A stretch of DNA of 64,000 nucleotides, from positions 372,001 to 436,000 of the forward strand of contig JAFCMP010000546.1 in NCBI GenBank assembly GCA_017506865.1. The letters are read 5' to 3'. Positions 2,923-64,000 of this stretch are shown piece after piece. The translations under genes and the position numbers were made by a program. Position 1 is the first letter of the stretch. Each line of letters begins with the position of its first letter. This DNA is from Tribonema minus (taxonomy: Eukaryota > Sar > Xanthophyceae > Tribonematales > Tribonemataceae). The notes beneath the pieces were generated by a model, which was given only the letters and a program-made list of their open reading frames with translations, had not been told where the DNA came from and did no database searches.

Positions 2923-5900
2923 CTCAGCAAGCGCGCCAGCCTCGCAGCGCGCATCACCCTGCCGCCCAGCGACACGAGCGTCGCCAATATCCACAGCACG
3001 TGCTTGAAGTTCAAGGCGTCAATGCCGTCGTCCACAATCTGTGGGGGACAGTGTGCGGTGCGGCGGCAAGGGAAAATGGAAGCGTGAGGTTCGCGCTATT
3101 GCAAGTCCGAACGTCGAATGGCGCGCCTCCGCCCAGCGCATGTGCGCAAGACATGCCTACGTACCTGTGAACGCACATTCAAGTGAAGTGTGCACCATGT
3201 AAACGAGTGCACTCATGTAATGCGGTCATCACTCGACACGCTTTGAACTGTGTGTTTGTGGATTTATTCAACTTGTGAGATGCCAGCAGGGGTGCCTTGC
3301 AGTCAACAGTGCATGTGGTAATCCTTGTGCATGATGCAGTATGCGAAGGCTCTCCAAGTTCCTGCTTCTACAAGCAGATGCTGCATGCAGCTTGCTGCAT
3401 GTCTGCATCAGCAAGTGCAGCCTCTTTTGGTGCATCTGCAGCTCAGTACAAATAAAGAACAAGTACTGCTGCCCCGATGTATGACGCCATGAGTACACTC
3501 TGAGGACACCATGAGTACAACCCGCTCTGTCAGTACGGGCCCGCAAGCCAGTGTTGTCATTTCTGGGCGGGGGTAGCGGGATGGCTATCGGCATGGGAGA
3601 CTTTCTGTGTACCGCTAGGCACTGCTCAGCCCTGTAAGCTGTATGATGCTCTGCGTAGTAGGCGCAATGGTAATGCTCACCATTGTCAGCTTAGGGTTGT
3701 ATGCTGTACCCCAAATGGCAACGCTACACAAGTGGGTTTTCACGTCCTCAGCAAGATTTAATAATTTAAAAGTCCACAAGTGTGGCATGATGTACAGGAG
3801 TACCACAAGCGCAAGTCCCTGAATACACTTTCAAAGAGTGGTCAACATTGTATTATTGATTCTCACTTACAAGGGCGCAAAGAATTCCAGGTGGTAGATG
3901 TCGAACGTACTGCCAGAATGTACATCTATCATGTGAAAACACAATCTCCGCATCAGCGCGCTGCCCATTTAGCATGAGAACTTGTGCTGTTTGGCACGTT
4001 GAGCGTTGCGGCGGCCAGTGCATGCGGGTCATCATGTTGTTTTCTTACAATAATCATAGGTGGCGGTTTCGTTCAGATGTGCTGTACACACACGCGCTGC
4101 GAGCACACGCTGGACACAAGCATATGAGCTGCATAGCTCGAGTTTTTGTAGGGTTTCCGGCTCTCAAGCGGAAGTAAATACATAACTGCTCATCAATTGT
4201 TACTTAGGGCCCAAGAAAGCCCAGATGACGTCAAAGCTTGCCACCAGAGTCTACATGTACCCTTCTGGTGACAGATGTACATTAACGCAGCAAACGAGCT
4301 GCGTGGCATCCCATCGCAGTGTGCCGCACCACTTCTCACGGCGGTACTCTCATGAACTGCAAAAGCATTGCAGCCCATGGGCATTGGTGGAGCATGGCAC
4401 AAGAGGGTGACAGTGCTACGGGCTGGGGCAAGTTGACCACACTCAAACAGCATCAGCACTCGGCACTCACCGGTATCGAGAGCCCGCCCTTGGGCATGAG
4501 CATCCACGGTACCTCCACGCTGAGCGTTGCTGCCGCCAGCGCGTCCAAGTAGAAGTACGCGCTCTTGAAGCCCTGTCGCTCGGTGTCAAACATGGAGTTG
4601 TTGGGGTTTGCCGCAGCCCTGCTCAGCGAGGCTTGCGTGCGGCGAAACGACCATGACCTGGGTGGGGGAGGCGGGAGGCACCAGGTTTGGTTTTGAACAA
4701 GCAATTGCATGGACGTTTAAGGCTGCAGCAAGGAACGCATCACAGGCGGAGAGCCCTTAGGCCGCTGCTTATCGTGTGTGGTCAAGTCGGATTTGAAGCG
4801 CCGCAAGGGCACGCTTGCGCAGGTCCAGGAGACCGCAGCCTGGGCAAACAGTCCTAGGCTTGAACCCTGCCCCAAGAAGATGCCATAACGTTGGCAGACG
4901 CTTGCCAACTTGCCAATTCAGACATCAGTACCTTAACCTCAAGGAGACCACTTGGTCAAACACTTGCTAGTCTTCAACAGTACATCAATTGCAAGTTCAA
5001 TGCACGATCAGGATACACTAACCTCAACATCACCTATCCCCCACTCAGCATCAAAGCTGTGGTCCGAGCAGAAGTGAAGCACATCAGGGCTCCGAACCGA
5101 GTGAGGGCACGGCGAAGCAAAGCAGAGAGGACTTTTGCAGGGCTACTTGGGGAGGCTAGTGTGCTCACAAGCACACAGTATACTGAGTACAGCATGCTGA
5201 ACCGTTGTCACGAAGTGTAATACCATGGTTTGCATCAGCACCTGCCGTCCCGCGGCGCATGTGGTCATTTCTCCCTACCTGACTACTATCTCTCCGACGC
5301 ACACAACAAACGCGGCAGTGAGCAGCGCGTCCACCGCAGCGTCGCAGTCCTTCGGCAGCACCAGCAGCCGCAGCGGATTGGCGATAAGCGCAAGGAGAGT
5401 CACCACCGTCACCAGTGGCATGCCCACTGCCTGCAGGGCGCGCCTGCACTGCCGCCACCGCTGCTGCTGCCGCGTAGCCGCCGCCACCGCCGCTGCAGCA
5501 GCAGCAACGCCAAACACAATTTGATTAACGCTGCTATCGAGCATAATATAGAGGTATGCGACGGATTCGCGACAAGCGCAAGGAGAGTCGCCACCGTCAC
5601 CAGTGGCATGCCCACTGCCTGCAGGGCGCGCCTGCACCGCCGCCACCGCTGCTGACTCCGTGTGGCCGCCGCCACCGCCGCTGCGGCAGCAGCAATGTCA
5701 AGAGCTATGTGAGTGACACTGCTGGTGAGTGCAGTACATCGTCGAATGGAAACAATGATTGGTGAGAATGACGAGTTTGCATCATGGATATCGTCTACAG
5801 CACAACGTCAGTGCTGCTGTCTCGCTCCACATACATTAATAATGTATACGTAATGCAGGGAGGAAGCAATACTTGGCACAATTGATATTTTCAGTGAAGC

Positions 5901-5987
5901 AGAGTAGATGCAATTATTTTCTGCCAGCCCATTGCTAACATCGGTGCTGCTGCCACATGGCCGCCACTGCCGCCGCCGCCGCCGCCT

Positions 5988-6024
<37 letters not shown>

Positions 6025-7120: not shown

Positions 7121-7179
7121 CTGCAGGCACAAAGAAACAGAGAAACGGATGAAATGAGTTGTATGATGTGGCAGTCTGA

Positions 7180-7490: not shown

Positions 7491-7579
7491 AGACGGCCCT
7501 TTCAAGGCATGCTGCCGCTGCAGCTGCCGCTGCTGCAGCTACCGCTGTACGCCCCCTGTTGCTGAGGTCTACTGCGGTG

Positions 7580-7707
7580 CATACGTTCATGTTGACTGAT
7601 ACAGCTCTGGCGAGTTTGCCAGACAGAGGAGCTCGTCGCGTGCTGGCCCACGCAACGGCACTTCACGTCTGAGGACAGTGGCTGCGTACCACAGGCCCTG
7701 TGGCAGT
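7580..7707 (-). other. Candidate upstream exon of the membrane-protein gene
   Basis: On the minus strand a GCCACAG acceptor at about 7708 is followed by open sequence. Two frames stay open, and a GTATGC donor near 7590 would give the phase required by the next exon (6953-7120). No domain is recognisable and composition does not decide the frame, so this is only a placeholder. The surrounding 7121-8740 otherwise shows no gene I can support. Confidence 0.2.
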
Positions 7708-9053: not shown

Positions 9054-9488
9054 CTACTTATTAGCTGGAGCCACCATCGACCCCTTCTGTAACACCACGC
9101 GATCCACCGCTTCCAAGCGATGGGCAGCGTGACTGGCCAAACGTGTCTTGCTGCGAGCTATCGTGGAGCGAACCCTGCACGCACGAAGAAGCTGGAAGAG
9201 CACCTGACCAGGTGAAAGGCTCGCCCGTGCGTGATTGAAGTGGTAAAGCGCGAGGCACGTGCCGTATTCGCACGCCTGATCTCTGCAGCTAGGAGGAAAC
9301 AAGGCAATCGCCTCCCCTCCCCTCTGACAGTAAAAAACGGGGCATCCAACTGTATCAAAAGGTATGCTCTGACTTGTCAAGTCCTGATGAGATAGTTGCC
9401 TCACATGCACTCCTCCCTCACGTGTCACCGTCAGGTCGGTAAAAAGTAGACGCACAAGACGTACACCGTGCGGCGCCGCATGCCACAC
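9054..9488 (-). CDS. Hypothetical protein, 144 aa
   Basis: An uninterrupted minus-strand frame of 144 codons from an ATG at 9488, with mixed, non-repetitive composition. I do not recognise the family. The segment LLFTDLTVTREGGVHVRQL loosely recalls the first conserved block of DIRS/Crypton tyrosine recombinases, but the catalytic His and Arg-Tyr blocks are not visible, so I do not assign it. Two overlapping shorter frames on the same strand weaken the case for this frame. It lies next to the inverted repeat at 9578-10014, which would suit a degraded mobile element. Confidence 0.25.
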   Translation of the reverse strand: MWHAAPHGVRLVRLLFTDLTVTREGGVHVRQLSHQDLTSQSIPFDTVGCPVFYCQRGGEAIALFPPSCRDQACEYGTCLALYHFNHARASLSPGQVLFQLLRACRVRSTIARSKTRLASHAAHRLEAVDRVVLQKGSMVAPANK

Positions 9489-9577
9489 CAGGGCACGTTC
9501 CTCTTCACCTTCGAACAGCTCGAGCGCATGGGAACCGTGGTGGTGGAAAGCATCTGAGATTACTGAGGCATGATGTT

Positions 9578-10014
9578 CGATGAAACACGAAGGTGCTGAT
9601 GGTGCGTCCGCTGGTCCGCCACGCTCTCAGCAGAGAACAGAGCGCAGCCCACCGCTTCTTCCACTGACAACAGCTGGGCATGCGGATGATTGCAGAAGGC
9701 CGACTGCGGGGGCAGCACGTCGTGCGCGGGACATTCCTCGCCACGATCAGGCCGTCCAGCAGCTCTACAAGGCAGTCGGCGATGATCACCATGATATTTC
9801 TTTCCCATGGTCTTGAGCCACCGGTTCTGCGGCTTGTAGGATCTTCGGCGCATGACGTGCTGCCCCAGGACCTGCAGTCGGACTTCTGCAGTCATGCGCA
9901 TGCCCAGTGGTTGGCAGTAGAGCAGCGGTGATCCGACCGTGCACTGCAGACATGTTCTCTGCTGAGAGCATGGCAGTCCGGCGGAGTCACCATCAGCACC
10001 TTGGTGTTGCATCG
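9578..10014. repeat. Inverted repeat, arms about 150-170 bp
   Basis: The left arm (9578-9733) and the reverse complement of the right arm (9843-10014) align over most of their length. Both read ...AAGGTGCTGATGGTG..., then GCTCTCAGCAGAGAAC, then CTGGGCATGCG, then GCAGCACGTC, with scattered differences. The spacer is about 110 bp. Neither arm contains a recognisable gene. Such a structure could be a palindromic foldback element or an inverted duplication of a coding fragment. Confidence 0.8.
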
Positions 10015-10292
10015 ACCAATAGCCCTGCAGTAGGGGATCTCAGATGGCTCCCCGCTGTTCGCCACACGCTTGAGCTCATCGGAGGTTGAGGGGGACCTGC
10101 CCTGGCGTGGCATGCGGCGCCGCATGCTGTACGTCTTGTGCGTCTCTGCTTCAAATGTGACAGTGCTCCACGGCCGTCTGCGTCCCGTCTGTGTGCAGGC
10201 CCTTGGAGCAGCCAGTCCACAAATTGCTGCCTCCTCTGGCGCTCTGCTCTGGAGCCATATGCTCTCAGCTCCGTCATTGACGCAGGAAGCAC
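9892..10292 (-). other. Possible coding fragment overlapping the right arm
   Basis: Two overlapping minus-strand frames look locally protein-like: one reads SDELKRVANSGEPSEIPYC into the inverted-repeat arm, the other AERQRRQQFVDWLLQG at about 10180-10240. I recognise no family and could not place convincing splice sites. This may be a remnant of the sequence that was inverted and duplicated. Confidence 0.2.
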
Positions 10293-10299
10293 GTCCCGT

Positions 10300-12544: not shown

Positions 12545-15500
12545 CTGCGGCGCAAATCGATGGATGTTGTGAGGTGAACATGAGTTAAAGTTGACAGGGT
12601 GATGGCGATGGTTCAAGCCGTGCTTTGATCAAATGAGGTTGGCTCGCACGCGACAGCCTTGGTCACTGCCTGCGTTGGCGGCCTTGCCGGCGTTGAAGGT
12701 GGCAGCAGAGCTGGCCTGCAGCACAACCTACAGCTGCGCGCTGAACACAGGCGCCGCAGGTCTACCGACAGATGCAGTGCCAAGCCATCGCAGCACAACC
12801 ACGAGCAGCAGACTGCTGCTGCAAGCGCCCCTGAACTCCGTGCAGTAAATACTAAGCTGACCGGTGTTGAGCGCTGTGCACCTGAAAGACGTGCGCATCG
12901 ATGCTCCGCGCCTGGTCCTCGGCGGCGCGCGCGCGCCAGTACTCGTGGGCGCACTGCCGCTGCAGGCGCGCGGCGGCGGCGGCAGCAGCTACGGCAGCGC
13001 CGGGTGCGTGCGCCTCCTGCGTGGCAGCCTGCAGCGCGGCCTCTGCGCGGCGGCGCGTGAGCTCGAGCGCTGACACAACCTGGTGCAGCGGGGGTACAGC
13101 GGAGATTTGTGAAGTGCACGCCGTGTAGCATGCTTAGAGTTAGGGTTAGGGTTGAGTGTCCTAACCCCAATCCTCAGGGCAAGGCTTGCACACATGCCAG
13201 AAACAGGCAAGCCTAAGGGTGAGCAATGTGCGCATCGCGCTAGCAGTCGGCGGCTGCGGCGCCAGGCGCGCCACCCCAGACTGAGTGTGTGGCAGGCTGC
13301 AGATTCACGTCTGCATCATGACATCTGCGCATCTATGCCATTGGGCCCAGTAGAGCAAACCTGACAAGTGCGTGCATGCGCTCCACTTCGACATTGCGCC
13401 AGAGTAGCTCATTGTCGCCATGTCAGTCATCACCATTCGACTCAATGTCAGCATACGGCACAGTTGATGGGCTTAGGGAACCGTCGTGAAATTTGCAGCG
13501 CCGCTTGGGGACTGCATAGGCCGTGAACCACAGAAAAGGAGTGCTACCATTCAATAGCATCAGGGGCATTGCAAAGCTTGATGATGCTTGATGTCCTTGT
13601 ATGATAGGCGATCGATATGCAAAGTCTGGCCGCAACGGACAAAAAAAACAAGAATCTCTCGCCCCCTGCTTCTGCAACTTGGGCATCACAGGCCTTCATG
13701 CTGCCTGAAGTCCATGAATGGTAGGCAATTAACACGCAGTCTTGTCGCACAAGAATAGAAAACAGTACTATCTCTCACCCGCTGCTTCTGCATTTCGGCG
13801 CTCTTGTACGCGAGCTCTTCGGTCGACAGCACCCACGGCGGCGTCTTCCTCCGCGCAGGCTTGACGGGGCCGGTGGTAAGGGATTCATCTGCGGAAGGCG
13901 GATGCACACGGCGTTCTTGCTATATTTCAACAGCGTGTGGCAGCGACAGCAGCAATGCATTGCCAAACACTTGGCACATGGGCACAAGACCGCTGCTGTG
14001 CTATGGAGCGCACATGGTTGGGAGTACTCGTACAAACCCACGAGTGCATCTACAAGCAAGCACACGCTGCAGTACAAAGAGAATGGCAGTTGGCTTTCCT
14101 GGCGCATATCCCCCCCCCCCCCACTGGCATTTGTCAAGAAAAATGGCTCATGGGAGTGTCGCCCTGTACATTTGCAGCTGTTCTCGGCCTGTGCCCTTGC
14201 CTGGTGACATCGGCTCACTGCAGCACCGCACCAGCGACAGCACAATATACGCGATGGACTACCACGTCGGTCTACCGAACTGCACTTCAACATACAGCTC
14301 AAATGTACTTCGAAGTACAGGATTTTTTGGCTCCCCACAAAAGTGCTGCGACTCGGCACTGCCCAGCGTCCCAATCATCAACAATTCCATAATTGCTGAA
14401 TCAGCATCGTTATGTATGCCACTTGTTGCCATCTCTCAGGTGTTGTTCTAACAGCGGCAAAGCGCAGACCACCATGCGCTCTAAGGTAACGATATTTTCC
14501 CACTGTAGGGTCCGCCACTGTACTTTATTTACTTCCGCTTGCGGGGCGGACACCCTGTGACAAAAGCAAACTATGCAACTCATTTACACACATGCTGTGT
14601 CAAGCGCACAACACATGCGCTATCTACACTATCAGACGGTCACTGACTGCCAAGCCAACTGCAGATGGGCTTCCAGGAGGACTTCGTCTGCCCTCAGAAC
14701 CCCCACTACTGTACCAATAGGACTTTTGTGCGCAGCACGTGCATCAAGTCCGTGGTGTGCACAATTGCTGCTGAAGTGCTGCCAATCAGCGCTGAGCCAC
14801 GTCGTAGGGTTAGCTAACCCCAACCATAGGCCGGCAAACACCAGCGGAGGAGAATGCATGGCATTCACTCTACCCCTCCTTGATCCGGCGCGCGCGCGCT
14901 GGCATCATTGCTGAGCCCTGCCGCGGTCTCTTTTGCCGCATGAATATGCATAATAGCAGGGAATAGAAGCATACGTGTTCTATACGACGTGTTGCAAAAT
15001 AGGGTTTCCGCCAGGATAGGGATTTCGCCAGGATAGGGTTTCCGACCCTCAAGCAAAAAAGAAGAAAAGGATGCATTTGGCTCCTGCTGTTTGCCAGTAC
15101 ATAAAAGATGCTCTACGCCTAACCCTAACCCTAACCCTAACCCTAACCCTAACCCTAACCCTAACCCTGCGCGGCGAGGGCAGAAGTCATGCAGCATGCG
15201 TACCTTCCGTTGCCGCCCCCCGCAGCGCGGCGGCACCCGCCGCAACATTGATCTTCGCGCTGACGTCGTGGCTGAGCCCTGCCACCGCCTTCTTCTCAGG
15301 CGCGTCCACGGGCCCGCCGAGCGCTGCTGACAGCCGCTGCTGCTGCTGCTGCAGAGGCGCCGCCGCGCCCACTAACTTTGCGCCCTCCGAGCGCAGCAGC
15401 CGCAGCCGCAAGCCGACGTAGGCGCCGCCGCCGCTGCCGCCGCCGCTGCCGCCGCCGCTGCCGCTGCCGCCGCTGCCGCCGCCGCTGCCGCCGCTGCCGC

Positions 15501-21500: not shown

Positions 21501-24500
21501 AAACCAGGCTGTGGTCAGGTGCATGCTGGCATAATTCGGTTACCTGCAATGCCGCTCGCTGCTCTCATATTGCGTGACCGCCAAAAATTCCAACTGCATG
21601 CCACAAAATGCGTTGCTCACAGCAAGCTGACACACAACACTTGTATTTTTGAAGACCCGCCTTGACCTGTTTGAGACGTAGCCGCTGCCGCCGACTGATG
21701 TGTTGAAGTTCCACGACAATCAACATGATGCTTTGCAGCAGCCATGACGCTGTGAGTTGAGTTGCGGCGCGTGCAGATCCCATGTATGCAGTGACCAAAG
21801 CACTGCCAGTTGAGAGTACCAGCCTCACTACCAGCGAAACCCTAGCACTTGCCTTACCCTGACCCTCGCCCTAATCCTGACCCCAACCCTTGCCTTCAGT
21901 TTTACGCTCACTCTAACCCTAACGTGACCCGAACCCCGCTACATAGCAGCACACAGCCAATGAGCACATACCTGCAGCCACAGTGCTACAGCGTGGCACG
22001 CCGCTGCCTCCAATTGCAACGCCGCCGCCCGGGCGCGGCGGCGGCGCTGCAGCACCACGCGCGCTCTGCGGCAGCGCACACGCCCCCTGAACGCCGCCTG
22101 CGTGCCGCCGAACGCAGCCGCTCGTGTAAGAGCGTGTAATGTGCCGCTGGTGGTGGTGGGCACAGCCCACTGTACACCAGCACGCGCACGGCACTATCGC
22201 AGACCGGCGTCGGCGCCGCCGCTGGCCGCGCGCATCGATGCGGGGGCTCTGCCGCACCCGCATTTGTGGCTCATGCATCTGAATCGTGCAACGTCAATAG
22301 GACATGCACTCAACACTCAGAGCCACATAATAAGTGCAGCGGCGTCGCAGGTGTACGTACCTGCCGCGGACTGCCGCCGCCGCCGCCGTCCACGCATATT
22401 GACTGTTGTGCACACGCAAAGAGATGCTCTATCATGAACCTGTGAAACTGCAGCGCAAAACGTCAATGGGACAAGCACACGGCCTTCAGAGCGGCTCCGC
22501 AGGGTACCTGCAGCACGCGCGCGGCCCTATCGCGGACCGCCGCCGCCGCCGCCGACGCCGCCGCCCATGCACATTGTCCGTTGAACACACACGAAGAGAT
22601 GCTCTATAGTGAGACTGCAGCGCAAATTGTCAATCGGACACGCACACATCCTTCGAAACTACACCATCAGTGCAGCGGCGGCGCAGGCACCTGCAGCACG
22701 CGCGCGGCCCTGGCGCGCACCGCCGCCGCCGCCGCCGCCGCCCACGCACAAGCGGCGCTCCGCGGCGGGTGCAGCGCCTCAGCGCGCGCCGCCGCGACGC
22801 CGCGCTCCCCGCAGAGGCACACGGCGACGGCGGCGGCGATGCGCAGGCGCACCTGCGGCCGCAGCAGCGCGCGGTAGTCGCGCGCGCCGGCGGCGGCGGC
22901 GAGGACGTACGCGTGCGCGGAGCGCAGCGCGGCGTAGGGGCGGCGCACGCGGCGCATGCGGTGGCGCGACTGCAGCGCCGTCGCGGCCTTGCGCGCGAGT
23001 GTCAGGACCTGCGTGCGTGCGGCCCGTGCAGCAGCGCGGAAAAGAAAGTTAGGGCTAGGGGCCCGCGGAGGGTGGCATCAAGAGTTGAGAGGAGGGGTCA
23101 GCGTGAGGCTCCGGGATGCTGGGAGGGGCGTGCCAAGAAGCACAAGGACCCTGACTTGGGCAGTGGCACGCGGCGCATGTGGTAGCGCGACTGCAGCGCC
23201 ATCGCCGCCTGACGCGCACGCGCCAGGACCTGCGCGCGCAAGCATCATGTGCCGAGGGCAGCAATAGAGTCAGAGTCAGAGTCAGGGTCAGGGTGCTTGT
23301 GTGTTGGGGTGAAGTTAGCATTGGGATACGGTTGAAATGTATGCAAGGATTCTTGCGTGTGCGCGCCAGGACACTGCGTGTGTGTTACCCATGCAGGGGC
23401 ACGGGGGATGGAGTTAGGGCTAGGGTCACGGTTAGTTGGGGTGGCAGGGGCATCAAGGGTCGGGAGGAGGGGTCAGCGTGAAGCTTCAGGATGCTGGGGG
23501 GGATGCCGAGGAGCACAACTTAAGGGCCCTGACTTGAGCAGCTGCACGTGGCGCTACTGCAGCGCCATCGCCACCCTTCGCGCGCGCGTCACGTTGAGGG
23601 CAGCAGTAGAGTCAGAGTCAGGGATAGGAGGTAATGCTTGGGTCAAGAGCGCGTCAGCGAAATGGCAATGGAGCGCGCCGCGGCTGGTACGCATGCGTTG
23701 ATGCCTGCAGATGAGAGGAGCGCAATGCCGCAGGAGCCATTCACACAAGTCACACGCGCGCTCGCCCGCTCGATCCTCAATCAGCAGACGCGGCAACTGC
23801 TTGATGTATGCACAGCTCATTTGAACCCACAAGAGCCGCTACTTCGAGCGCTGCAACGCTGGGCGTCGCTGCGCACCTGCCACGCCGCGCGCTGCCACCG
23901 CCGCCGCAGGTGCCGCCGCCGCCACGCGCGCGCCACGCGCAGCGCGGCGGCGGCGACCACTTCGAACTCCGCCATGCTGAGCACTGATGACGCGTGCGCG
24001 CGCGCCGCCGGCAGCGCGTGCGCCACGCGCTCGCACCGCCAGCACAGCCGCAGATAGCCATCGCCGCCGCCGCCGCCGCGGCCGTAGGCCGCCGGCACAA
24101 GAGCCCCCCTGGGCGTGGCCAGCAGGGTCTGTTCGGCATCAGCACTCGCGCCGCTGCCGCAGCCGTCGGCGCAGCCGCCGCGGCATGGCGCACTTGCTGC
24201 AGCCGCCGCTGCCGGCCAGAACCGGCTGCACGCGAGGCACACGCAGCGTGCGGCGGCGCGGCGGCAGAGCGCGCAGGGCCCCGCGCGGAGGCGCACGCGC
24301 GCGGCGTGCCCCCTGTGCACGCGCTGAATGTGGAGCGCTGCTGCGGTGCGGCGGCGGTGCGCGGCGAGCTCCCACACGCGCACGTCGGCGGCGCCGAGGA
24401 GGCCCTCGGCGTGGGCGGCGTCCGCGCACGCCTCGCACCTGGTTGAAGTTGAAGTTAGGGCGATGGGTGTGCGTCAGGGTTGTCGGGGCTCGCAGTGATG

Positions 24501-41900: not shown

Positions 41901-43317
41901 GACCGTCGTCACGGGTTCGTACGGCAACCTGTGCTCCATGTACAGCCGCGCGGGCAGCGCACAGGCGACGCTAGAAATATCTAAGGTACGTCATGTTGTA
42001 AGAATTGTAAGAATTGTACAAGTAGATGCATCTCTGTAATTCAATGGTATGCGATTATATATATATACATGTCAAGGTGTGTGATGCAAAGGCATGGAGG
42101 CAGACCTATATGCACAACACGGGCTCGTACGGCAACCTGTGCTCCATGTACAGCCGCGCGGGCAGTGCGCAGGCAACGCTAGAAATATCTAAGGTATGTC
42201 GGTACAAGTCTACTTCAACTTTTGCTTCAACATTGTGCAAGATTATGCGCTCTGAAGCATGTACACGACATGAGTGCGTTTGGCAACCTGTGCTCCATGT
42301 ACAGCTGCGCAGGCAGCGCGTAGGACCGCTAGAAATATCGAAGGCATGAGCGAATCTGTGTTTATGAAGGTATGTTGTGTAAATGCACACTGGCTAGCAT
42401 GGCAACCTGTGCTCTATGCAGAGCCACGCGGGCAGCGCGCAGGCAACGCTAAAAAAACCTCAGGAACGTGTGCCTGTGACATACTGTGTGTACGCACGAT
42501 GAAACATTCTAGAACCACAGCAACAGCCCGCGCATCGGTATCTCAACAGCATGCGTGCGTGCCACCCAGCTCCTCTATCGTTACCAGGCAAGTGAAGTAG
42601 GTGTGCGTAAGCATGTGTGCGCGCGTGTATATTGCATTGTGTTGACGCACTTGACGACATGTGTGCTCTGCACTTAGCGAGGAGGTGTTTATGGTCGATT
42701 TCACCTTTCTTACGCCGCCAGCTGCGTCGCTACAGCATGCGTGCCACCACAAGTTGCCCGCAAAACCTGCGCGCGACCACCACACCCACACACACCACAT
42801 CCACACCCATATCCACACCCATACCTTCAGCACTGAACCAGCTGCATAACTTTTCTGGTTGAAGTCTGGTTTTCTTTTGTCGCCTGCATGAACGTCATGT
42901 GCCGGCCGCTGCGCACTTGCAACCTCTGTCGGACCAGACATTAAGGGATGCCCCCCCCCCCCCCCCCCGCGTCCCGCCGTGCCCTCATAACCTCAGCTGC
43001 TGCCACTTGAATTTCACATCACCAAAATCAGCTGACAATTGTGTTACACACGCATTTCGCTGCCTGCTGGTGCTTCGCATGTGTGCCAGGACCCGTCTAA
43101 GCGGTCATCGAGCAAGCGAGCCAAACGGCGCCCCCCGTTGGCCCCGGTCGCAGGCTCCAGCATCCCCCCCCCCTCCGTCCCCCCGCCGCTCGACTTCGAC
43201 AAGAAGATCCTGCACATGTCGTGGCACCCGCGCGAGGACGTCATCGCCGTGGCAGGGCTCAACAAGCTGTACATATACACGGCTCAGCAGCAGCAGCAAC
43301 AGCAGAAACAGCTATAA
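32946..43317 (+). CDS. Protein phosphatase 2A regulatory subunit B55 (PR55)
   Basis: B55 is the WD40-propeller subunit that targets the PP2A A-C core enzyme to phosphoserine/threonine substrates in mitotic exit and signalling. Nine exons join in phase to about 524 aa: 32946-33129, 34324-34433, 35175-35294, 35454-35684, 37407-37715, 39116-39235, 40355-40474, 41833-41985, 43090-43317. Diagnostic segments in order: [20 protein letters not shown], the B55 signature [31 protein letters not shown], the second signature [10 protein letters not shown] with [59 protein letters not shown], and the terminal [13 protein letters not shown]...LNKLYIYT before a Gln-rich tail. Family members are about 450 aa; the excess is Gly/Ala/Glu-rich inserts in exons 1, 4, 5 and 9. 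No domain is missing and no frame is broken. The introns are packed with partial copies of adjoining exons. Confidence 0.94.
34434..34660 (+). repeat. Four tandem copies of the 3' end of PP2A-B exon 2
   Basis: Exon 2 ends with GGCCGCATCGTTGTGTTCCG, then codons for QNTPIKNK and a GTGCGTGACCGC donor. The same unit of about 60 bp recurs four times with decreasing quality, centred at 34465, 34530, 34585 and 34645. Most copies keep CAGAACACGC and TATTAAGA; the second keeps CAGAACACAC and TATTAAAA. The first copy has AAGGTGCGTGACCGC intact as a possible donor. Confidence 0.9.
34875..35170 (+). repeat. GAT microsatellite and tandem duplication in PP2A-B intron 2
   Basis: (GAT)n tracts at about 34878-34905 and 35054-35068 are embedded in a duplicated unit of about 175-180 bp: GTGATCACTTGA.GTTGA.G(GAT)n..AAGCAGCACCA....CCTTGAAC. 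The unit is present at about 34855-35015, at 35033-35150, and in part near 34800. It lies just upstream of exon 3 and ends near that exon's acceptor. Confidence 0.75.
35685..36360 (+). repeat. Array of copies of the PP2A-B exon 4 donor region with CCCTAAA motifs
   Basis: Exon 4 ends GACGCAG|GTGCGGCAGCGCTC. Copies of GACGCAGG.TGCGGCAGCGCTC, or parts of it, recur near 35850, 36000, 36057, 36160, 36255 and 36340, each followed by GGCCAGGC(C/G)TAGCCCTAAACCC-type sequence related to the telomere repeat. The unit is 100-170 bp and degenerate. Confidence 0.8.
37160..37380 (+). repeat. Upstream copies of the start of PP2A-B exon 5
   Basis: Exon 5 begins ACGCAG|GGCACCAAGGTCTG. Copies are seen at 37170 (GGCACCAAGATCTGCATGCA), 37235 (GCGCAGGGCACCAAGGTCCC) and, for the following exon segment, 37327-37352 (GCGTGTTGCGGACGCGCACG). 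Copy 2 has a complete acceptor and the same phase for about 12 codons. Confidence 0.85.
38690..38800 (+). repeat. Downstream copy of the 3' end of PP2A-B exon 5
   Basis: Exon 5 sequence GTGGTGACGTGCGCCGCGTT recurs at 38728 about 1 kb into the intron and the match continues for some 60 bp (CGCGCGC.GCGCA...TTCCTGTACAGCAC). Single-base indels break the frame. Between exon and copy, related segments rich in CTCGTAC(C/G) occur at about 37810-37850 and 38490-38545, so a larger local duplication may have carried this copy away. Confidence 0.75.
38940..39000 (+). repeat. Upstream copy of the start of PP2A-B exon 6
   Basis: Exon 6 begins GTCTGTCGCAG|GTGTCGGACTTGAGAGCGGG. At 38944-38977 the sequence reads ATCTGTCGCAGGTACCGGAC, then TTGTGAGCGGCC. 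The acceptor is intact and the copied exon portion is about 25 bp. A weaker third version lies at 38915-38940. Confidence 0.8.
39372..39591 (+). repeat. Two downstream copies of the 3' end of PP2A-B exon 6
   Basis: Exon 6 ends with codons [15 protein letters not shown] and a GTAAGG donor. Copies at 39372-39417 ([21 protein letters not shown]) and 39547-39591 ([21 protein letters not shown]) keep frame and donor, and about 30 bp of following intron (GCTGCAGT, GCCGCAAAAC). Between parent and copies are two to three amino-acid changes. Spacing is about 180 bp. Confidence 0.9.
40062..40275 (+). repeat. Two upstream copies of the start of PP2A-B exon 7
   Basis: Exon 7 starts TTCAG|GTGACCCAGTGCGGCCAG. 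Copies with the same C-rich tract and acceptor lie at 40068 (codons [12 protein letters not shown] then a stop) and 40240 ([17 protein letters not shown]). Also shared is an upstream segment of about 100 bp with CGCTTCCACC...CATACACC. The three units are spaced about 170 and 115 bp apart. Confidence 0.9.
40610..40860 (+). repeat. Two downstream copies of the 3' end of PP2A-B exon 7
   Basis: The exon end (codons [11 protein letters not shown], donor CGG|GTGCGTATG) recurs at 40620-40654 (TGACCATTCCCGTGCACGAC) and, shorter, at 40793-40815 (CACGACCACCTGCGGCCGCA). Both are followed by the shared intron start GTATGTTGGGCCAAGCCAGT or a variant of it, and by GCTCAGCAG. Confidence 0.9.
41430..41740 (+). 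repeat. Three upstream copies of the start of PP2A-B exon 8
   Basis: Exon 8 starts CTGCAG|CTGTGCGACCTGTACGAG. Acceptor-containing copies occur at 41441 (GCAGCTGCGTGCGTTTTGCA), 41572 (GCAGCTGTGCGGGCTGCACG) and 41699 (GCAGCTGTGTGCGCTCTGCG). The last also shares about 50 bp of the preceding intron (GACGACG..GCGCCC.GCTTGC). Quality improves towards the true exon at 41833. Confidence 0.85.
42104..42193 (+). other. Possible alternative exon: in-frame copy of PP2A-B exon 8 3' half
   Basis: A 90-nt segment bounded by GGAGGCAG (acceptor) and AAG|GTATGT (donor) keeps phase 0 on both sides, like exon 8 itself. It encodes TYMHN and then the same 25 residues as the end of exon 8 ([15 protein letters not shown]...LEISK). 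Over those 25 codons it differs from exon 8 at four sites, all synonymous. It could be spliced in as an extra exon (30 aa) without a frameshift. Alternatively it is simply a very recent copy. Confidence 0.5.
42270..42455 (+). repeat. Two decayed copies of PP2A-B exon 8 3' end
   Basis: Copy 3 (42277-42344) contains GGCAACCTGTGCTCCATGTA and GCTAGAAATATCGAAGGCAT but has an in-frame TAG and a gap. Copy 4 (42399-42452) has GGCAACCTGTGCTCTATGCA and ends CTAAAAAAACCTCAGG with the donor destroyed. Together with exon 8 and the 42104-42193 copy they form a four-member array that decays with distance from the exon. Confidence 0.9.
42775..42830 (+). repeat. CA-rich microsatellite
   Basis: Imperfect (CCACAC)n at about 42778-42828 in PP2A-B intron 8. 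A poly-C tract at 42952-42968 follows, closer to exon 9. Confidence 0.8.
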
Positions 43318-53835: not shown

Positions 53836-56400
53836 GCGCATTTACGGCAGTCGTGCGGGGCCTCGGTCGTGATCCTCACACATTAGCCGTCAGGACATGC
53901 CTAAATATTTCCAAAAATTGCGCTTTGGAGTACACGCAGTGCATCTGAACCACGCGCTGCTGCCTCCTTTGCCTCGCATCTACGGCAGACGTGCGCGGCC
54001 TCGGTCGTGATGCGCGTGTGCTGCGGCTCGCTGTCGCCGGCGAGAGCGGCCAGCAGTGGCCTGCAGCACTCAACGTGCCGCGCTGCATCTTTTGGCGCGG
54101 CGACGTGCTCAAGGACCTGTTCGGTAAGCGGTTTTATTGTCAGGATTAAGGGTTAGAGGTACTGCTAGGGTTAGATTTCAAGTAAAGTTTAAAAGTTGTT
54201 GCCAGCAGTGGCCCGCAGCGCTCAACATGCCGCACCGCATCTTCTGGCGCGGCAACGCTTTAAGGAACTCTTTGTGAAGGTTAGGGCCAGGTGAGGCTCA
54301 AGCTTGAGATGAGGATAAGGGGTGATCGACGGCGCAGTTTGACTGACGTGATTTGCGTGTGGGTCTTGGCTGCTCTATGGTGGGGAGCATGCCGTTGACC
54401 TCAAACCTCAATGAGGACCTCATTTGGTGAGCGCGCATGCGTGACGGCCTACGCATGACGCGGCATTGTCTGCGGCACTGCCCTTGTCGAACGTCACGCG
54501 CTCTGTTTGGTGCCACAATCTCTTTGCTACGTGTTGATGTACCAATTTTGTTTTTTTTGTCATGTTCGTTCGCGTGCCCCTGTCCTTCCAGCGCGACAAC
54601 CACATGTTGAAGTACTTTGTGAAGTTTATGTGCTAACCCTAACCCTAACCCTACTCTCCAGCGCCCGTCTCACAGCCCTGTTGCGGCGCGTTCGCGTCTG
54701 CCCTTCTCCGCAACAAGGGGCCATTTGTCAAACCACTGCTGCTTCTCCAATCCCCTCATGGCGTCACCCCCCTCACCCTCAACCCCCCCCCCCTCCCCCA
54801 CCCTCGAACCCCGATGCGCGCCGCCAGGTCTGCTGGTGCCGCTCGCCATCACTCTTTACATGTATGTATACATAACCAGCTGCAGGTCCTCCTTCACCTC
54901 CTGCATGACGGCATATATACATACATATAACCACCTATAGCCTTTCCTTCAGCTCCCTCACGACGCCACCCCCTCACCCCCCCCGCCCCCCATCACCAAC
55001 ACCCTGCCCCGGCAGGCCTACTAGCGCCGCTAACCGCAGGCATCTACGTCATGGCCGGCGCCTTTGAAATGGGGGTAGGGGGCGCCATTGCGGCGGCGCA
55101 CGCCATATCCGGCGACGCCTCGGAGGCAGCGGCGGCAGCGGCGGCGGATGCTGCGGCGGCAGCGGGCGGCGCGGGGGGGGTGGCGCCGTGGCTGCTAGAG
55201 GAGGCGGGGAACGTGACGGTGGTGGCGGTGGCGTCGCTCGTCATGCTGCGCTTCTTCCGCCTGGTGATACACGAGCGCGACGTGTACCTCGCACGCGCCA
55301 TACAGGTGCGCGCTGCTGTCTCATTGTCAGGGAACGCGGACGCTGCCCATGTCGCGACACGCGCAACGTGGCGCGGCGCGCGTCAACGTGGCGATGATTG
55401 GCGTGCGGCCATTTCAGACATTTGTTGCGCAGTAGCAGAGACGGCACGTAGTCTCAGCGCGTGCACGCATGAGTAGTCGCGTAGTGTAGCGGGGTTTCAA
55501 TGTGCGCTGGCGATTGCGATGGTGGTGGCGGTGGCGTCGCTCGTCATGCTGCGCTTCTTCCGTCTGGTGATACACGAGCGCGATGTGTATCTGGCGCGCG
55601 CCATACAGGTGCGTGTTTGCGATACGGTATGTACTGTGTGTACCGGTCTGTGTCTGGGTGTAAGCGCACAGACGCAGCGGGGTGCCGGACCTGACGTGGC
55701 GCCCGTGGCCGCCGTGTGTGCATGCATGATCGTAGCAGTGGAGTGTAGCAGGGTACAAGTGTGCGCTGGCGATTGCTGTGGTTGTGGCGGTGGCGTCGCT
55801 CGTCATGCTGTGCTTCTTCCGCCTGGTGATACACAAGCGGGATGTGTACTTGGCGCGCGCCGTACAGGTGCGCGTTTGCGATACGGTATGCACTGTTCTG
55901 TGTCCTGGTTTAAGCACGCATGCGCAGCAGGGTGCCGGACCTGAGCTGGTGTTGTGGCCACGGTGGTGTGTGCATGCATGATCGTACCAGTGTATGGTAG
56001 CAGGGTACAAGTGTGCGCTGGCATTTGCGGTAGTCGTGGCAGTCTCATTGCTCGTCATGCTGCGCTCCTTCTGCCTGGTGGTACACGAGCGAGACGTGTA
56101 CCTCGCACGCGCCATACAGGTATGTCCCCCTCTGCCATAATGTGTCCGATATGTCGGCACCTGTTGCACTAACGCATGACCGGTCACAATCTTCAAGACT
56201 GTACGTACATTTGTTCTGCACCGTTGTAACGAGTGCAGATGCCACAAGTCTAACCGGTGTTTTGGGGCTGCACTGTTGCGCGTGCGCAGGAGGCAGCGCG
56301 CGCGCACCCCGGGGAGCCCGTTGTGGCAGTGCTCGGCCTGCTGCACTGCAACGGCGTCGCGCAGCTCCTGCGCAGCGGCAGGGACCTCACAAACATGTGA
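48057..56400 (+). CDS. TraB/PrgY-family membrane protein
   Basis: Nine exons join in phase to about 458 aa: 48057-48362, 48720-48839, 49899-50013, 51218-51285, 52658-52777, 53298-53409, 53989-54123, 55016-55305, 56290-56400. TraB-domain hallmarks in order: YILGCLH|GSPTSSRDVENVI, GAVVLELCESRFKALS, GIDIVLGDRDINETL, GLLAPLTAGIYVMAGAFEMG, a C-terminal hydrophobic segment followed by HERDVYLARAIQ, and VVAVLGLLHCNGVAQLL. Family members occur in bacteria, where PrgY reduces pheromone activity, and in organelle or ER membranes of eukaryotes; the biochemical activity is not settled. The N-terminus has a mildly hydrophobic stretch ending YGACA|FHAP, like the heterokont signal/transit cleavage motif, which suggests plastid import (inference). 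The first ATG in the frame is 48057. Intron 8 carries three extra copies of the exon 8 end. Confidence 0.9.
50895..51217 (+). repeat. Tandem duplication of the acceptor region of TraB exon 4
   Basis: A unit of about 155 bp occurs at about 50905-51058 and again at 51060-51217: TTGCTGTGCCTGCACC...CACTTCAATG..GAAGTTTGAAGTTGAAG...GTTG(T)GGCCAC..GCACCGC...TTTC(C)TCAGA..TTCAACT.AACCCCGG...GCGCGCAGG. Both end in a GCGCGCAG acceptor. The first is followed by GGACAGGCTT, the second by the true exon. Confidence 0.85.
52795..52960 (+). repeat. Duplication at the donor of TraB exon 5
   Basis: The segment GCAGGTGCGTCGCGCATTGT, with CCGCTGAGGGTACTGCTGCT, is repeated about 100 bp downstream as GCAGGTGGAGGCGAGTCACG and CCGCTGAGGGTGCTGCTGCT. 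Both are followed by T(T)(A)CACGT. The copy retains GCAGGTGGAG, a weak donor. Confidence 0.75.
53805..53880 (+). repeat. Upstream copy of the start of TraB exon 7, behind a poly-C tract
   Basis: A 26-bp poly-C run (53809-53834) leads into TTTACGGCAG|TCGTGCGGGGCCTCGGTCGT, matching the exon 7 start at 53980-54010 (TCTACGGCAG|ACGTGCGCGGCCTCGGTCGT). The copied exon portion is about 25 bp. Confidence 0.85.
54190..54265 (+). repeat. Downstream copy of the 3' end of TraB exon 7
   Basis: CAGCAGTGGCCCGCAGCGCT and CATCTTCTGGCGCGGCAACG copy the exon end (54048-54123) with several substitutions and a frame break. The donor region GTTCGGTAAG has become CTTTGTGAAGGTTAG. Confidence 0.9.
54810..54865 (+). 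repeat. Upstream copy of the start of TraB exon 8
   Basis: GCCGCCAG|GTCTGCTGGTGCCGCTCGCC parallels the true start CCGGCAG|GCCTACTAGCGCCGCTAACC at 55016. It encodes GLLVPLAITLYM in the same phase for about 12 codons. A second C-rich tract of the same kind precedes each. Confidence 0.8.
55493..56119 (+). repeat. Three copies of the TraB exon 8 3' end as potential alternative exons
   Basis: Units at 55493-55608, 55752-55867 and 56004-56119 are each exactly 116 nt. They encode a short lead (for example YKCALAIAV), the hydrophobic segment and HERDVYLARAIQ (with changes in later copies), and end at a GTGCGT, GTGCGC or GTATGT donor. Units 2 and 3 follow an intact GTAGCAG acceptor; unit 1 has GTAGCGG instead. 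With a 2-nt start and phase-0 end they have exactly the splice phases of exon 8. Unit 1 differs from exon 8 over 29 codons only by five synonymous changes. They may be mutually exclusive or alternative exons supplying the last membrane helix. Confidence 0.65.
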
Positions 56401-60300: not shown

Positions 60301-60341
<41 letters not shown>

Positions 60342-63300
60342 GCCTCGACGTCGTCGTGCACCGCCGCGGCGCCCGCCGCCGGCGTCAGCATCTCGACGTT
60401 GCTGTTGCGGCGCGAGTCGCCGGCAGCGCCGCGCAGAGGCTCCGTGGAGTCGGTGCTGCCGCGGCGGCCGACGCTGCTGCCGCGGCGGCCTAGGAACAGC
60501 GACCCGCGGCGCTGGCGCGACAGGGACCGGGCCTCGCCGCCGCCGCCGCCGCCGGCGCCGGCGGCAGCGGCACGCTGCTGCTGCTCGGCGATGGTGGCCG
60601 TGTCCGCGGCGGCAGCAGTAGTGGGGCCTGCGAGCGCGCTTAGGATGCCGTAGCGTCGCGCCTTGCGGTGCTGCAGGAAGTAGTCGTGGCGCCGGCCGCC
60701 TGGCGAGGGCTCGCCCGAGTCAATGTTGAAGTGCGTCGAGTAGTTGGTGTAGTAGAAGTTGGCCCTGGGGGGGGGCACAGGGGTCGGCGGGGGGAGGTTA
60801 TGCGGGTGTGAGAATTGAAGATGAGCTTGGGCCCGTTCTGTTCGCGCACTGACAGGTTGTTGCCGTGTGAAATAACATGGTGCTAGATACCGGTCGCGGC
60901 TAGCAGCAGCAATGCTGAAGCGCCTATTGAATCAATGAAGCTTGGCTAGTTGGGTTTGGCGTAGCGGTTGGGGGCACGACCCGAACGAACGCGAGATTGA
61001 TATTACGCAAAGGTGCGGTGCTGTATTCTCACCGACCCCTGATAAATGATAAAAGACCCTAACTTACGGACTAGGCTGGGGTTTTGGGTCAAGTCAAAGA
61101 GAGGGCCAGCTAGACTGCTGCGCTGACGCTCACCTGGACTCCTTGTTGGCGGAGACGAGGAGGTCCGAGCTGTACGCGAGCTCCTGCAGGCTGGGCAGGC
61201 AGAACGCGTCCGTGTCGCTGCGCGTCTGCCACAGCAGCGCCAGCGTGAGCGCCGGCACCAGCTCGGTGTCCTCCTTCTGCACATGGTAATGCAGCAGGTG
61301 AGAATCTGTTAGAATCACAAGTGCGGTAGGGGTAGGTACAAGTATTAGACAGCATTGGCATCACTAAGCATAGCATGTCTGCCACAGCAGCGCCAGCGTC
61401 AGCGCGGGCACGAGCTCGGTGTCCTCCTTCTGCGCGCGCGATGCGAGGTGACGCAGCAGGTGAGGACCCGCGATGGCTGTCGCACAGCGCACGCATTGGT
61501 TCAGCGTGCACCTTATGCAATGCCTCGTATCGCATGTCAAGTGAACTGAGGGTATGTATGGGTATCAGAACGCGTCCGTGTCGCTGCGCGTCTGCCACAG
61601 CAGCGCCAGCGTCAGCACCGCCACGAGTTCGGTGTCCTCCGTGATGCAACAGGTGAGAATGCATTAGAATCACGAGTGAGCTGGGGGACTGGTGTAGGTA
61701 TTAGGCAGAGCTGGGGTCACCAAGCAATGCGCGTCTGCCACAGCAGCGCCAGCGCCAGCGCCGGTACGAGCTCGCTGTTGTCCCTCTGCGCACTGGGTGC
61801 AAGTCGTTTGCATGGCGACAGCACTGCGTGTAACAAGAGAGCTCAGGGTGGGCGTAGGTATCGGAAGACGTTGCGCTGCACAACTGCTGAGCACTGCCCA
61901 GCGATAGCGCCTCTGGCACAGGTGCCAGCGCATCCTCCTGTGTCCTGAAAGTGTGAAAGACTGTCAAGAGAAGACTCACACGCTCAGGATCGGCATCATG
62001 CGCACGCTAATACATACAGCACGCTCGCCATTAACCCTAGCCCTAACCCTACTATGACAACTCGTGCAGCTCCACGCCTTGTTTGATGCTAAGCAGCTTC
62101 AACGCAGGGTCGATGATCACAGAAGCCGGCCATATGTAGTGCGCCCGCAACCACCATTCAGTGCGATGAGCTGTGAACCAGATTTCGTGTGCGCACGTAA
62201 GGTATCACGCGTTCGTTCTCAGCGGCGCTCCGCAGCAGTAGTCACGACTACGCCCGCTGCTCACGAGTCTGCGGTATGGGGCGTCTCACTCCTGCCATCC
62301 TCTCTTCTGCAACACTGCAAGTAAGACAATATCTGTGCGCGCGCACTCGCCTGCGTGCCGTCTTGGTCGGACGCCTGAACGCAATCCTGCTGTCAATCTC
62401 TCTTCTACAACAATGCAAATAAGATCATACGATCTGAATGGCACGCACCTGCGTGCCGTCTTGGCCGGCCTTGACGGAATCCTGCGGCGCTGACATGCCA
62501 GATCTCTTTTGACGCGCGCCGCCGGGATCGGCGCCCACGGCAGCTGTCTTCATCTCCTGAGAGTCGACAATGGCAGAGAGAGATCATGGCACCCTTCAAT
62601 TGACGGTTTGCTTAACAGAGGCACCGCAATGGCGGAGAGAGGTCATGGTACCCTTCAGACGACGCTTTGCTTTGAAGTTAGAACAAAGGCATCACAATCG
62701 CGGAGAGATACCATGGTGCCCTTCAGATGACGGTTCGCTTGACAGCGGCTTTTCAGACAACGGTTTGCTGAACACAGGAATCAAATTGGCCACGACCCAT
62801 GCTACTGGCCTACCACGCTTGCGCTGCCGCTGCTTCAAATGGACTAGGACCTACGCTACTGGCCTACCACGCTTGCGCTGACGCTGCTTCATTGTCGTAG
62901 ACAAGCAGGAAAGCCACTGCAACAACGATGAATGCGCTGCAACAGTGTCGCCGTGTCCTACGTCTGCTACTGCGTACGTCTGCCACTATCGCCCATTCAT
63001 CTAATCCTGATTGACGATGGCGGAGGATAACCGTAAAGCTCTGTGGGAAACGACGGCTTTCGCAGTGCAGCACAGACGGTTAGGGTTGGGGCTAGGTGCC
63101 AGCGGCCGCAAGGGGTCGAATTGGCATGGGCCCGTGCTTCCGACATACCGTCCAGGAGAGTCACCACACCGACACATGCATCAGCGGCGATGCGCTGCAA
63201 CGGTATCACCGCGTCCTACGTCTGCTACCGCGAAAGTCCGTGCAGAGGCCCAGATGGGGTGTTGGATCACGTGATTGCTATTCGACATGTTTGACCCGTG

Positions 63301-64000
63301 GCCAACTGCCGCAGCAGCGGCGATCACGTTACTGGTGGAAGGCACTGGCGGCCGACCACACCTTGTCACCTAGAGCTGCACAATCTTTTGTATCGTTTCC
63401 GGTCAATGGTCATACCTCTATCGACTCTTATAAGCGTTATTCATGAATGAACAAGCTGCCAATGTGCATGTTCAGCACTAACCTCTAGGGGCGGCGCCCA
63501 CAGCTCGTTCATGGCAGTCTTGCTAAGCAAACTGTAGTTGACTCATTCATAGTTGATCAGCTGCTTGCCATGCACTAACTATATTTTTGTTGACTTGCTT
63601 ATGAAATCAAATGATTCACAGACAAGCTGCCATGGGCATGCTGAGCGCTGACCTCGAGGGGCGGCGCCCAAAGCTTGTTAATGGCAGTCTTGCACATGCA
63701 CTGAGGCTAGCTTTCATACAGAGGCACAATAGAGGCGTCGACGCATGACTGCTATCCACTAAAATATTTATGTCGACATGTTCATCATATTTCTCAATGA
63801 AATGTCATGTGCATGCTGAGTCCTGACCTCGAGGGACGGCGATGACAGCTCGTTCATGTCGTTCATCGCGGTCTTGGGTATCACGTGATCGCTCTATCAA
63901 CAGTTATACCTCTGTTGACTCCTATCATTAAAAAGTTATTCCTGGATGTACAAGCTGTCGTGTGCACGCTGAGCGCTGACCTCGAGGGGCGGCGCCGACA
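58479..64000 (-). CDS. FNR/ferric-reductase-type oxidoreductase, C-terminal part (gene runs off the right edge)
   Basis: Minus-strand exons 62449-62556, 61134-61276, 60127-60764, 59035-59450 and 58479-58532 join in phase (about 452 codons). An upstream exon ending APPLE|GTCAGC touches the right edge. Key segments fit the NAD(P)-binding half of ferredoxin-reductase-like flavoproteins: a strand-helix unit (LALLWQTRSDTDAFCLPSL), a later strand FYYTNYST, and the terminal motif HVIISGPPGFVDMIE followed by LRELEIPESILRFLD, which parallels the usual CGPP-hydrophobic ... elgvp..i ending of FNR, ferric reductase and NADPH oxidase enzymes. The CGPP cysteine is a Ser here. Between these lies a Gly/Ala/Ser-rich insert of about 250 aa. 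The FAD-binding and any heme/membrane domains would be off-window. Family call moderate; substrate unknown. Confidence 0.55.
60300..60345 (-). repeat. GCC microsatellite inside an exon
   Basis: A (CCG)n tract in exon 60127-60764 encodes a poly-Gly run in the sense frame of the FNR-like gene. A shorter one lies at 60537-60560. Both fall inside the low-complexity insert and keep the frame open. Confidence 0.9.
61365..61800 (-). repeat. Three upstream copies of the start of exon 61134-61276
   Basis: The exon starts at a CATGTGCAG acceptor with codons KEDTELVPALTLALLWQTR. Copies upstream in gene sense are at 61375-61432 (TELVPALTLALLWQT, acceptor region altered), 61570-61645 (EDTELVAVLTLALLWQTRSD) and 61730-61795 (ELVPALALALLWQT). 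Spacing is about 160-190 bp. Shared intron sequence (GTAGGTA, CAAGTATTAG, CACTAAGCA) accompanies each copy. Confidence 0.9.
62025..62055. repeat. Short telomere-like stretch
   Basis: TTAACCCTAGCCCTAACCCT at 62032-62051, in the intron of the FNR-like gene. Similar short stretches occur at 13137-13154, 16055-16105, 20045-20072, 21843-21930, 35725-35750 and 54632-54650. Confidence 0.8.
62270..62448 (-). repeat. Downstream copies of the 3' end of exon 62449-62556
   Basis: The exon end and donor (in + orientation CACCTGCGTGCCGTCTTGGC) recur at 62348-62375 as CGCCTGCGTGCCGTCTTGGT followed by CGGACGCCTGAACGCAATCC. The intron block CT.TCTTCT(G/A)CAACA.TGCAA(G/A)TAAGA occurs at 62300-62328 and 62398-62425, marking a period of about 100 bp. 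Confidence 0.8.
62560..62895 (-). repeat. Short tandem duplications upstream of exon 62449-62556
   Basis: A unit of about 65-70 bp (GGAGAGA..TCATGG(T/C)(A/G)CCCTTCA and GACG.TT.GCTT) occurs three times at 62570-62755. A 57-bp unit (CTACTGGCCTACCACGCTTG) occurs twice at 62800-62890. Both look like local tandem duplications inside an intron. Confidence 0.85.
63283..63403. repeat. Dispersed repeat A, copy 2
   Basis: Matches 28378-28500 in order and orientation (CCCGTGGCCAACTGC, GTGGAAGGCACT, CTTGTCACCTAGAGCT, ATCTTTTG). See copy 1. It lies in an intron of the FNR-like gene. Confidence 0.8.
63478..64000 (-). repeat. Tandem array of an exon 3' end plus donor at the right edge
   Basis: Four units of about 150-175 bp, anchored near 63482, 63655, 63829 and 63981, each contain in + orientation (A)CCTCGAGGGGCGGCGCC followed by AGCTCGTTCATGGCAGTCTT or a variant. 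In minus sense these read KTAMNELWAPPLE or KTAINKLWAPPLE then a GTCAGCGCTCAGCATG donor. The unit at the window edge is probably the true exon and the other three its downstream copies. Confidence 0.85.

Follow-up and report, generated by a model that had tools for sequence, protein, structure and literature searches.

Exon stuttering, a form of sequence stuttering described in February 2026 for the dot chromosomes of chicken (Hron et al. 2026, PMC12954441), is the closest known counterpart of a pattern found in the introns of Tribonema minus (Xanthophyceae, PX clade). According to the accessible part of that report, imperfect tandem copies of a lateral exon part and its donor or acceptor run through the adjacent intron, the exon remains intact, and the copying is strictly local. 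The same features are found in the stretch of T. minus DNA analyzed here, referred to as the window, which comprises 64,000 nucleotides (nt) (C543:372001–436000) of a 158-Mb assembly of 554 contigs. T. minus is a convergent case of this recently described process in a very distant lineage.

Other described systems share fewer of these features. A 2016 study of intron gain (PMC4974935) also deals with tandem duplication across an intron–exon boundary; in its accessible text, however, one duplication made a new intron, whereas in T. minus existing introns grow. In Caenorhabditis elegans, loss of HELQ-1 leads to tandem duplications by polymerase theta end joining, and G-quadruplex (G4)-induced breaks were studied in the same work (Kamp et al. 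2021, PMC8654963). These duplications are likewise local and tandem but, from what the accessible part of the paper describes, are not tied to exon edges. GC-rich gerbil genes are said to show intron stuttering, as data not shown, in the accessible part of the chicken report (PMC12954441). The literature searched, which excludes most subscription papers, contains no description of the phenomenon in algae, nor under these names elsewhere. An earlier sequence-only reading of the window knew of no described genome in which such copies are this pervasive; this stands for algae within the literature searched but not in general, given the chicken case (PMC12954441, seen in its accessible part).

Self-comparison of the window by BLAST, with pairs kept at E ≤ 1e-6, returned 57 same-strand and 3 opposite-strand pairs. 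Within 2 kb, 55 pairs are same-strand and 2 opposite-strand, the latter both being self-palindromes. Copies of exon starts lie upstream of the exon and copies of exon ends downstream, with the splice site included. The central observation of the sequence-only reading, that introns carry exon-edge copies with their splice sites, is confirmed. The regions of the PP2A-B gene of the window and of chaperonin genes elsewhere in the genome together contain 118 same-strand and no opposite-strand pairs, with 33 donor-spanning, 22 acceptor-spanning, 11 exon-only on one side, and 52 in which both sides are intronic. The last group includes matches of copy to copy, and some of its members may adjoin exons that were not placed. 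None of the 118 is a whole-exon or exon–exon pair, which sets the pattern apart from whole-exon tandem duplication. Overall, the observation is confirmed, its directionality is ordinary, its extent is unusual, the copies are neutral, and an edge bias is possible.

PP2A-B has seven introns placed by sequence, and its exons are open and in phase. Its 9.5 kb hold 25 same-strand and no opposite-strand pairs (E ≤ 1e-4). At the BLAST level, five donors (exons 1, 3, 5, 6, and 7) and three acceptors (exons 4, 5, and 6) have copies; with a stricter 45-nt edge scan, four of the donors and two of the acceptors are found again. The features, in window positions as throughout, are as follows.

34320–34433, plus strand: PP2A-B exon 1 (start not fixed), donor after 34433; matches residues 25–71 of P0001
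34380–34664, plus strand: tandem partial-copy array of the exon 1 3′ end and donor, periods ~50 and ~110
35454–35684, plus strand: PP2A-B exon 3
35677–36279, plus strand: exon 3 end (last few nt) copied along with the donor and the start of the intron, period ~173–201
37215–37439, plus strand: upstream copy of the start and acceptor of exon 4 (37407–37715)
38727–38783, plus strand: part-copy, 57 nt, of the exon 4 end (source 37641–37696), 1086 nt away
38936–39138, plus strand: upstream copy of the start and acceptor of exon 5 (39116–39235)
39190–39653, plus strand: exon 5 end and donor, with two downstream copies at ~182 and ~356 nt
39917–40391, plus strand: upstream copies of the start, poly-C tract, and acceptor of exon 6 (40355–40474)
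40441–40931, plus strand: exon 6 end and donor, with two downstream copies
41439–41740, plus strand: three degenerate upstream copies of the start of exon 7 (41833–41985), spacing ~130, seen by eye; BLAST did not find them
41907–42469, plus strand: exon 7 end and donor, with three downstream copies; GT is absent from the copied donor in the outer two

The distant copy of the exon 4 end sits past a dispersed repeat of 855 bp (~37754–38609), and its spacing would be ~230 if the repeat were removed. This repeat has at least 28 other genome copies of at least 740 bases with 69–91% identity.

The PP2A-B protein joined from the exons has as its best match a T. minus protein (66%), followed by proteins that include those of Phaeothamnion, Chrysoparadoxa, and brown algae. 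Contig C511 encodes that T. minus protein exon by exon, with 97–99% over the four longest matches; judged from these alignments, the window gene is a paralogue of the C511 gene. For the exon 4 end and the exon 6 start, all seven copies compared in the two genes, including two of the three C511 exon 6 copies, are closer to the exon of their own gene. The copies, therefore, either arose after the genes diverged or were homogenized within each gene. At the start of C511 exon 6, the three upstream copies share a leucine codon, while the exon now has a synonymous one.

Further repeats of the window lie in other genes.

30869–31187, plus strand: ribosomal protein P0, exon 2 start and one upstream copy (30869–30983 and 31071–31187), 83%
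55215–56121, plus strand: TraB-like gene, ~90 nt of exon end with donor in four units, spacing 303, 262, and 253
61200–61792, minus strand: FNR-like gene, exon start in four units
5374–5723, no strand assigned: channel-like exon, tandem same-strand pair of 162 nt, 87.7%
22363–23591, no strand assigned: giant-gene region, overlapping tandem same-strand pairs
25086–25296, no strand assigned: giant-gene region, same-strand pair of 65 nt, 90.8%, period 146
27005–27144, no strand assigned: giant-gene region, tandem pair, period 74, 81%

P0, which begins close to 29742, was placed by a PF00466 match at 29742–29936, and the reading frame of its exon 2 was determined. For the giant, channel-like, FNR-like, and TraB-like genes, the repeats are confirmed, and the names and exon models are those of the sequence-only reading. 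Same-strand pairs occur at the other places it had pointed to, namely at 61.2–61.8, 62.3–62.5, 5.37–5.72, and 7.1–7.5 kb and, in the giant-gene region, at 18.2–19.7, 22.3–23.6, 25.1–25.3, and 27.0–27.1 kb. The pair at 13.56–13.79 kb is weak (71%), and weak opposite-strand and low-complexity matches are also present at 17.4–19.7 kb.

Outside the window, a TCP1/Cpn60 family search gave 56 exon-level matches, of which 4 are themselves exon-edge copies, 11 were incompletely covered, and 41 were scored. Flank copies accompany 18 of these 41 chaperonin (CCT/Cpn60) exons, with 50 matches, all same-strand and none opposite-strand. All 22 upstream matches copy the exon start, beginning no more than 16 nt from where the exon match starts, and 26 of the 28 downstream matches end within 25 nt of where it ends; the remaining two lie within the last 40% of a single exon match on C51. 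One side of an exon carries at most eight matches, and the copies are 75–100% identical to the exon. Ten arbitrary 3-kb stretches yielded 65 same-strand pairs and one opposite-strand pair, with pairs in eight of the ten stretches, one being a satellite. For complete introns, the stricter edge scan was run over 37 introns (74 boundaries), including the 7 introns of the window PP2A-B gene that prompted the question. Copies are found at 19 of the 74 boundaries and, with the window gene excluded, in 11 of 30 introns.

The stuttering screen of Hron et al. 2026 (PMC12954441) was adapted to the complete introns (blastn-short, matches of at least 20 nt, their bit score of 42.1). All 30 matches above 42.1 are proximal and same-strand, none is distal, and they fall in 14 of the 37 introns. 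Below 42.1, there are 12 more proximal same-strand matches, along with one proximal and three distal matches on the opposite strand; one shuffled run gave no match of at least 20 nt. The source lies within 1 base of the exon border in 21 of 30 cases and within 10 bases in 24 of 30, part of these borders being approximate, as compared to within 1 base in >90% of cases in the accessible part of the chicken report (PMC12954441). T. minus shows the splice-site-bearing edge copies, the locality, the imperfect tandem blocks measuring tens to hundreds of bases, and the intact exon that characterize stuttering. As far as the same part of PMC12954441 goes, exon-part lengths are 20–187 bp in chicken and 21–135 in T. 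minus, purely intronic repeats occur in both, and the chicken setting is GC-rich; the GC content of the window is 0.59. The two systems differ in distribution and extent. In chicken (PMC12954441, accessible part), 190 of 236 affected introns are on dot chromosomes, up to 44 copies occur, and length polymorphism was shown, whereas in T. minus copies or local pairs are found on many contigs, matches per exon side do not exceed eight, and the phenomenon is known from one assembly. Concentration on dot chromosomes would be peculiar to the avian case and not inherent in the process. T. minus copies were, in addition, subjected to a polarised codon-position test of neutrality.

Neighboring copies are regularly spaced, with a median of 153, an interquartile range of 118–180, and a range of 50–710 (n = 58). 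For 41 of 58 copies, the relatedness of the intron sequence flanking the copied edge exceeds the random 95% level, and an intron-side search with equal settings found 20 copies at 12 boundaries. Median intron length is 940 with edge copies (n = 17) vs 341 without them (n = 20; p = 0.0002). Of 16 arrays, 11 have a nearest copy that is more similar to the exon than the farthest one, 4 show the opposite, and 1 is tied, such that the proposed decay with distance holds as a tendency and not as a rule.

Unpolarised mismatches between exon and copy number 76/59/162 over codon positions 1/2/3 (p = 3e-14). This first count suggested coding constraint on the copies, an interpretation that was rejected on polarisation, which was possible for the 15 arrays having at least two copies; the third-position excess comes from the exon side and from shared differences, not from copy-private changes. 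Changes private to copies are distributed 42/38/50 (p = 0.39) and those private to exons 2/0/9 (p = 0.002), while differences common to some copies, which are unpolarised, number 4/3/16. Single-copy arrays, which cannot be polarised, have mismatches at 18/12/40 of 237/236/238 sites. Indels in exon-derived copies stand at 19 to 297 substitutions and are thus about as rare as in ordinary introns and flanks, where the ratios are 0.08 and 0.06. The copies drift neutrally as noncoding DNA, and the exons stay under coding constraint. Repeated tandem duplication across exon–intron boundaries, as proposed from the letters of the window, is thus well supported by strand, regular spacing, related flanks, and neutral decay.

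On the basis of these data, short tandem duplications are probably frequent in the noncoding DNA of T. minus, and those units that span a splice site would leave decaying exon-edge copies, as in exon stuttering of chicken; a probability of roughly 0.8 is assigned to this explanation. Duplication units would mostly measure 75–210 bp, with breakpoints within exon edges and introns. When a unit extends across a splice site, the exon would retain an intact edge, and the intron would be left with a partial copy of the exon that carries a splice site of its own. Repeated rounds at one place may build arrays and lengthen the intron, after which the copies would decay neutrally and the exon would be held by coding constraint. 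In an acceptor-spanning duplication, only the downstream unit continues into the whole exon, and the copy therefore lies upstream; for a donor, the reverse applies. The upstream/downstream rule put forward for the window, consequently, holds as a description but is not a separate rule. It is the geometry of splice-site-spanning tandem duplication and needs no special mechanism.

The trigger would most likely be template switching in replication or repair, or end joining, in GC-rich, poly-C-rich DNA, and later unequal exchange between exon and copies may occur. Poly-C tracts precede several acceptors and their copies. Runs of C/G of at least 8 are present in 9 of 17 introns with copies vs 1 of 20 without (p = 0.002), longer introns holding more runs. 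For runs of at least 7 within 70 nt, arrays are found at 4 of 8 acceptor edges with a run vs 4 of 29 without (p = 0.049) and, for donors, at 1 of 2 vs 11 of 35 (p = 1). The association of C/G runs with copies is confounded by intron length and is suggestive only. Median intron GC is 0.546 with copies vs 0.504 without (p = 0.049).

Several observations weigh against random tandem duplication of noncoding DNA as the full account. The phenomenon is not universal. None of the five introns of an HSP70 gene has copies, and self-comparison of its inverted partner revealed one 27-nt palindrome only. Kinase exons lack copies in 27 of 29 cases (2 of 29 with copies is a lower bound, as many matches stop short of the exon border). 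Two chaperonin genes on C235 have one edge copy in seven introns, one of them, a CCT gene, having none in two; the chaperonin gene at C279:41–47 kb also has one edge copy in seven introns, and the single Cpn60 intron on C511 has none. The claim that all six multi-exon genes show the copies agrees with the same-strand pairs at the indicated places in the window but is overstated as a rule for all genes. In 17 of the 58 copies, the intron part does not rise above the random 95% level. The remaining points come from a neutral model in which tandem duplications at uniform positions, decay, and deletion act on random sequence, with detection identical to that for the real data. Pairs touching an exon make up 45 of 66 in complete introns, whereas simulated means are 0.38–0.54 with a maximum of 0.61 (144 sets). 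Windows with copies number 18 of 66 at the edge and 114 of 1010 in the interior (ratio 2.4; interior rate 199/1149 when windows overlapping edge copies are retained), whereas simulated edge/interior ratios are 0.27–1.01 (90 sets treated alike), the interior usually being the commoner site. The observed match rate drops from an edge value of 0.23 to 0.10 at 20–50 nt into the intron, where the simulated rate is approximately level. At exon identity ≥0.95, the mean identity of the intron part is 0.69 vs 0.82–0.83 in simulation (n = 11). Uniform neutral duplication is therefore an incomplete account; the data call either for a preference for edges or for faster intron change than the model provides. 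Exon edges are, with moderate confidence and in a sample of 37 introns, over-represented relative to the simple uniform neutral model, and the excess over the intron interior has the support of simulation, subject to that model.

The excess at edges is a reason to consider a process other than duplication at random positions, such as exon-templated re-copying, conversion between exon and copy, or a process linked to transcription or splicing. An edge-biased process of this kind would also account for the acceptor array on C135, where the exon parts are nearly identical and most intron parts strongly different, for intron parts more diverged than simulated at equal exon identity, and for the resemblance of copies to the exon of their own gene. 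However, the intron flanks are related in most copies and very similar in the C5 donor array, the simulation is simple (uniform rate, random sequence), and copy-private changes resemble ordinary neutral drift. The sharp gap in divergence between exon and intron parts was also considered as a non-neutral sign and set aside, since simulations reproduce much of it, albeit not all. Edge-biased copying is held as a tentative alternative. Its more specific form, in which exon ends are re-copied into introns by a junction-biased process more frequently than by random tandem duplication, the exon parts are kept alike through exchange with the intact exon, and birds and a stramenopile alga acquired the process independently, is somewhat more doubtful.

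Retention of splice dinucleotides (GT in 22 of 36 copies and AG in 15 of 22, some boundaries being approximate) could be taken to suggest alternative exons under selection, or decoy splice sites kept to regulate splicing. Yet the outer PP2A-B exon 7 copies lack GT, the lengths of 18 of the 19 indels found in copies cannot be divided by three, and copy-private changes ignore codon position, such that the bulk of the copies are not selected alternative exons; this explanation is improbable, and the suggested seeding of alternative exons is not supported for most copies. Introner-like mobile elements or retro-inserted transcript pieces would be at home with the dispersed 855-bp repeat in one PP2A-B intron, but the matches above 42.1 all lie in the adjacent intron and none in the other introns of the gene. 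Furthermore, the same element was not found at many unrelated loci: when the PP2A-B region was searched against the genome (with 40 of 143 candidates scored), each of the 51 non-self matches obtained fell within the dispersed repeat and none within the exon-edge arrays. The copies include intron sequence and, therefore, do not derive from mature mRNA, leaving mobile or retro-inserted sequences scarcely credible. Misjoining of read pieces around exon edges, judged from the assembly alone, is just as remote, as the copies mostly differ both from the exon and among themselves, carry private substitutions, and occur at many unrelated loci.

The process described for avian dot chromosomes, and mentioned for gerbil genes, is thus also at work in the introns of an alga, on many contigs. 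Its occurrence there points to a mutational mechanism of a general kind, with a plausible link to GC-rich DNA, and not to an oddity of birds. Since a filamentous alga can be grown and resequenced, the mechanism is testable. The process may explain differences in intron length among genes of one family. It also calls for caution in gene prediction, where intronic partial exons with plausible splice sites can be called exons.

Additional repeats and paralogous segments were observed in the course of the analysis. Pfam scans of whole frames, with stops as X, returned one weak WD40 match and ankyrin repeats only, because the exons are short, and one whole frame prepared in the same way had no match among solved structures. 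The ankyrin-repeat frame (46.7–47.2 kb, minus strand) overlaps tandem self-matches, as would be expected of protein repeats rather than intron copies. A near-palindromic inverted repeat of 698 bp (70% self-inverse) lies at 9448–10145, and interstitial telomere-like repeats are found at 15118–15168, (CCTAAC)8.5, and 25294–25350, (AGGGTT)9.5. A 114-bp direct repeat (28385–28498 and 63288–63400) is 82% identical over a distance of 35 kb.

Elsewhere in the genome, a trans control with a kinase match gave 17 matches in the flanks of other loci, 11 of them opposite-strand, which are probably related kinases. Segments L012, L014, L024, and L035, on C90, C179, C467, and C359, share long stretches of 95–99.8% identity across the four contigs and are haplotigs or segmental duplications. 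L076 (C112:300001–303000) is a tandem satellite with a period of ~400 bp and 95–97% identity. The inverted HSP70 pair (L072/L073, C522:954300–958200 and 981300–985200, ~24 kb apart) has nearly identical exons; its first three introns together are ~69% identical, and the fifth is identical, a pattern that looks like conversion or strong codon constraint.

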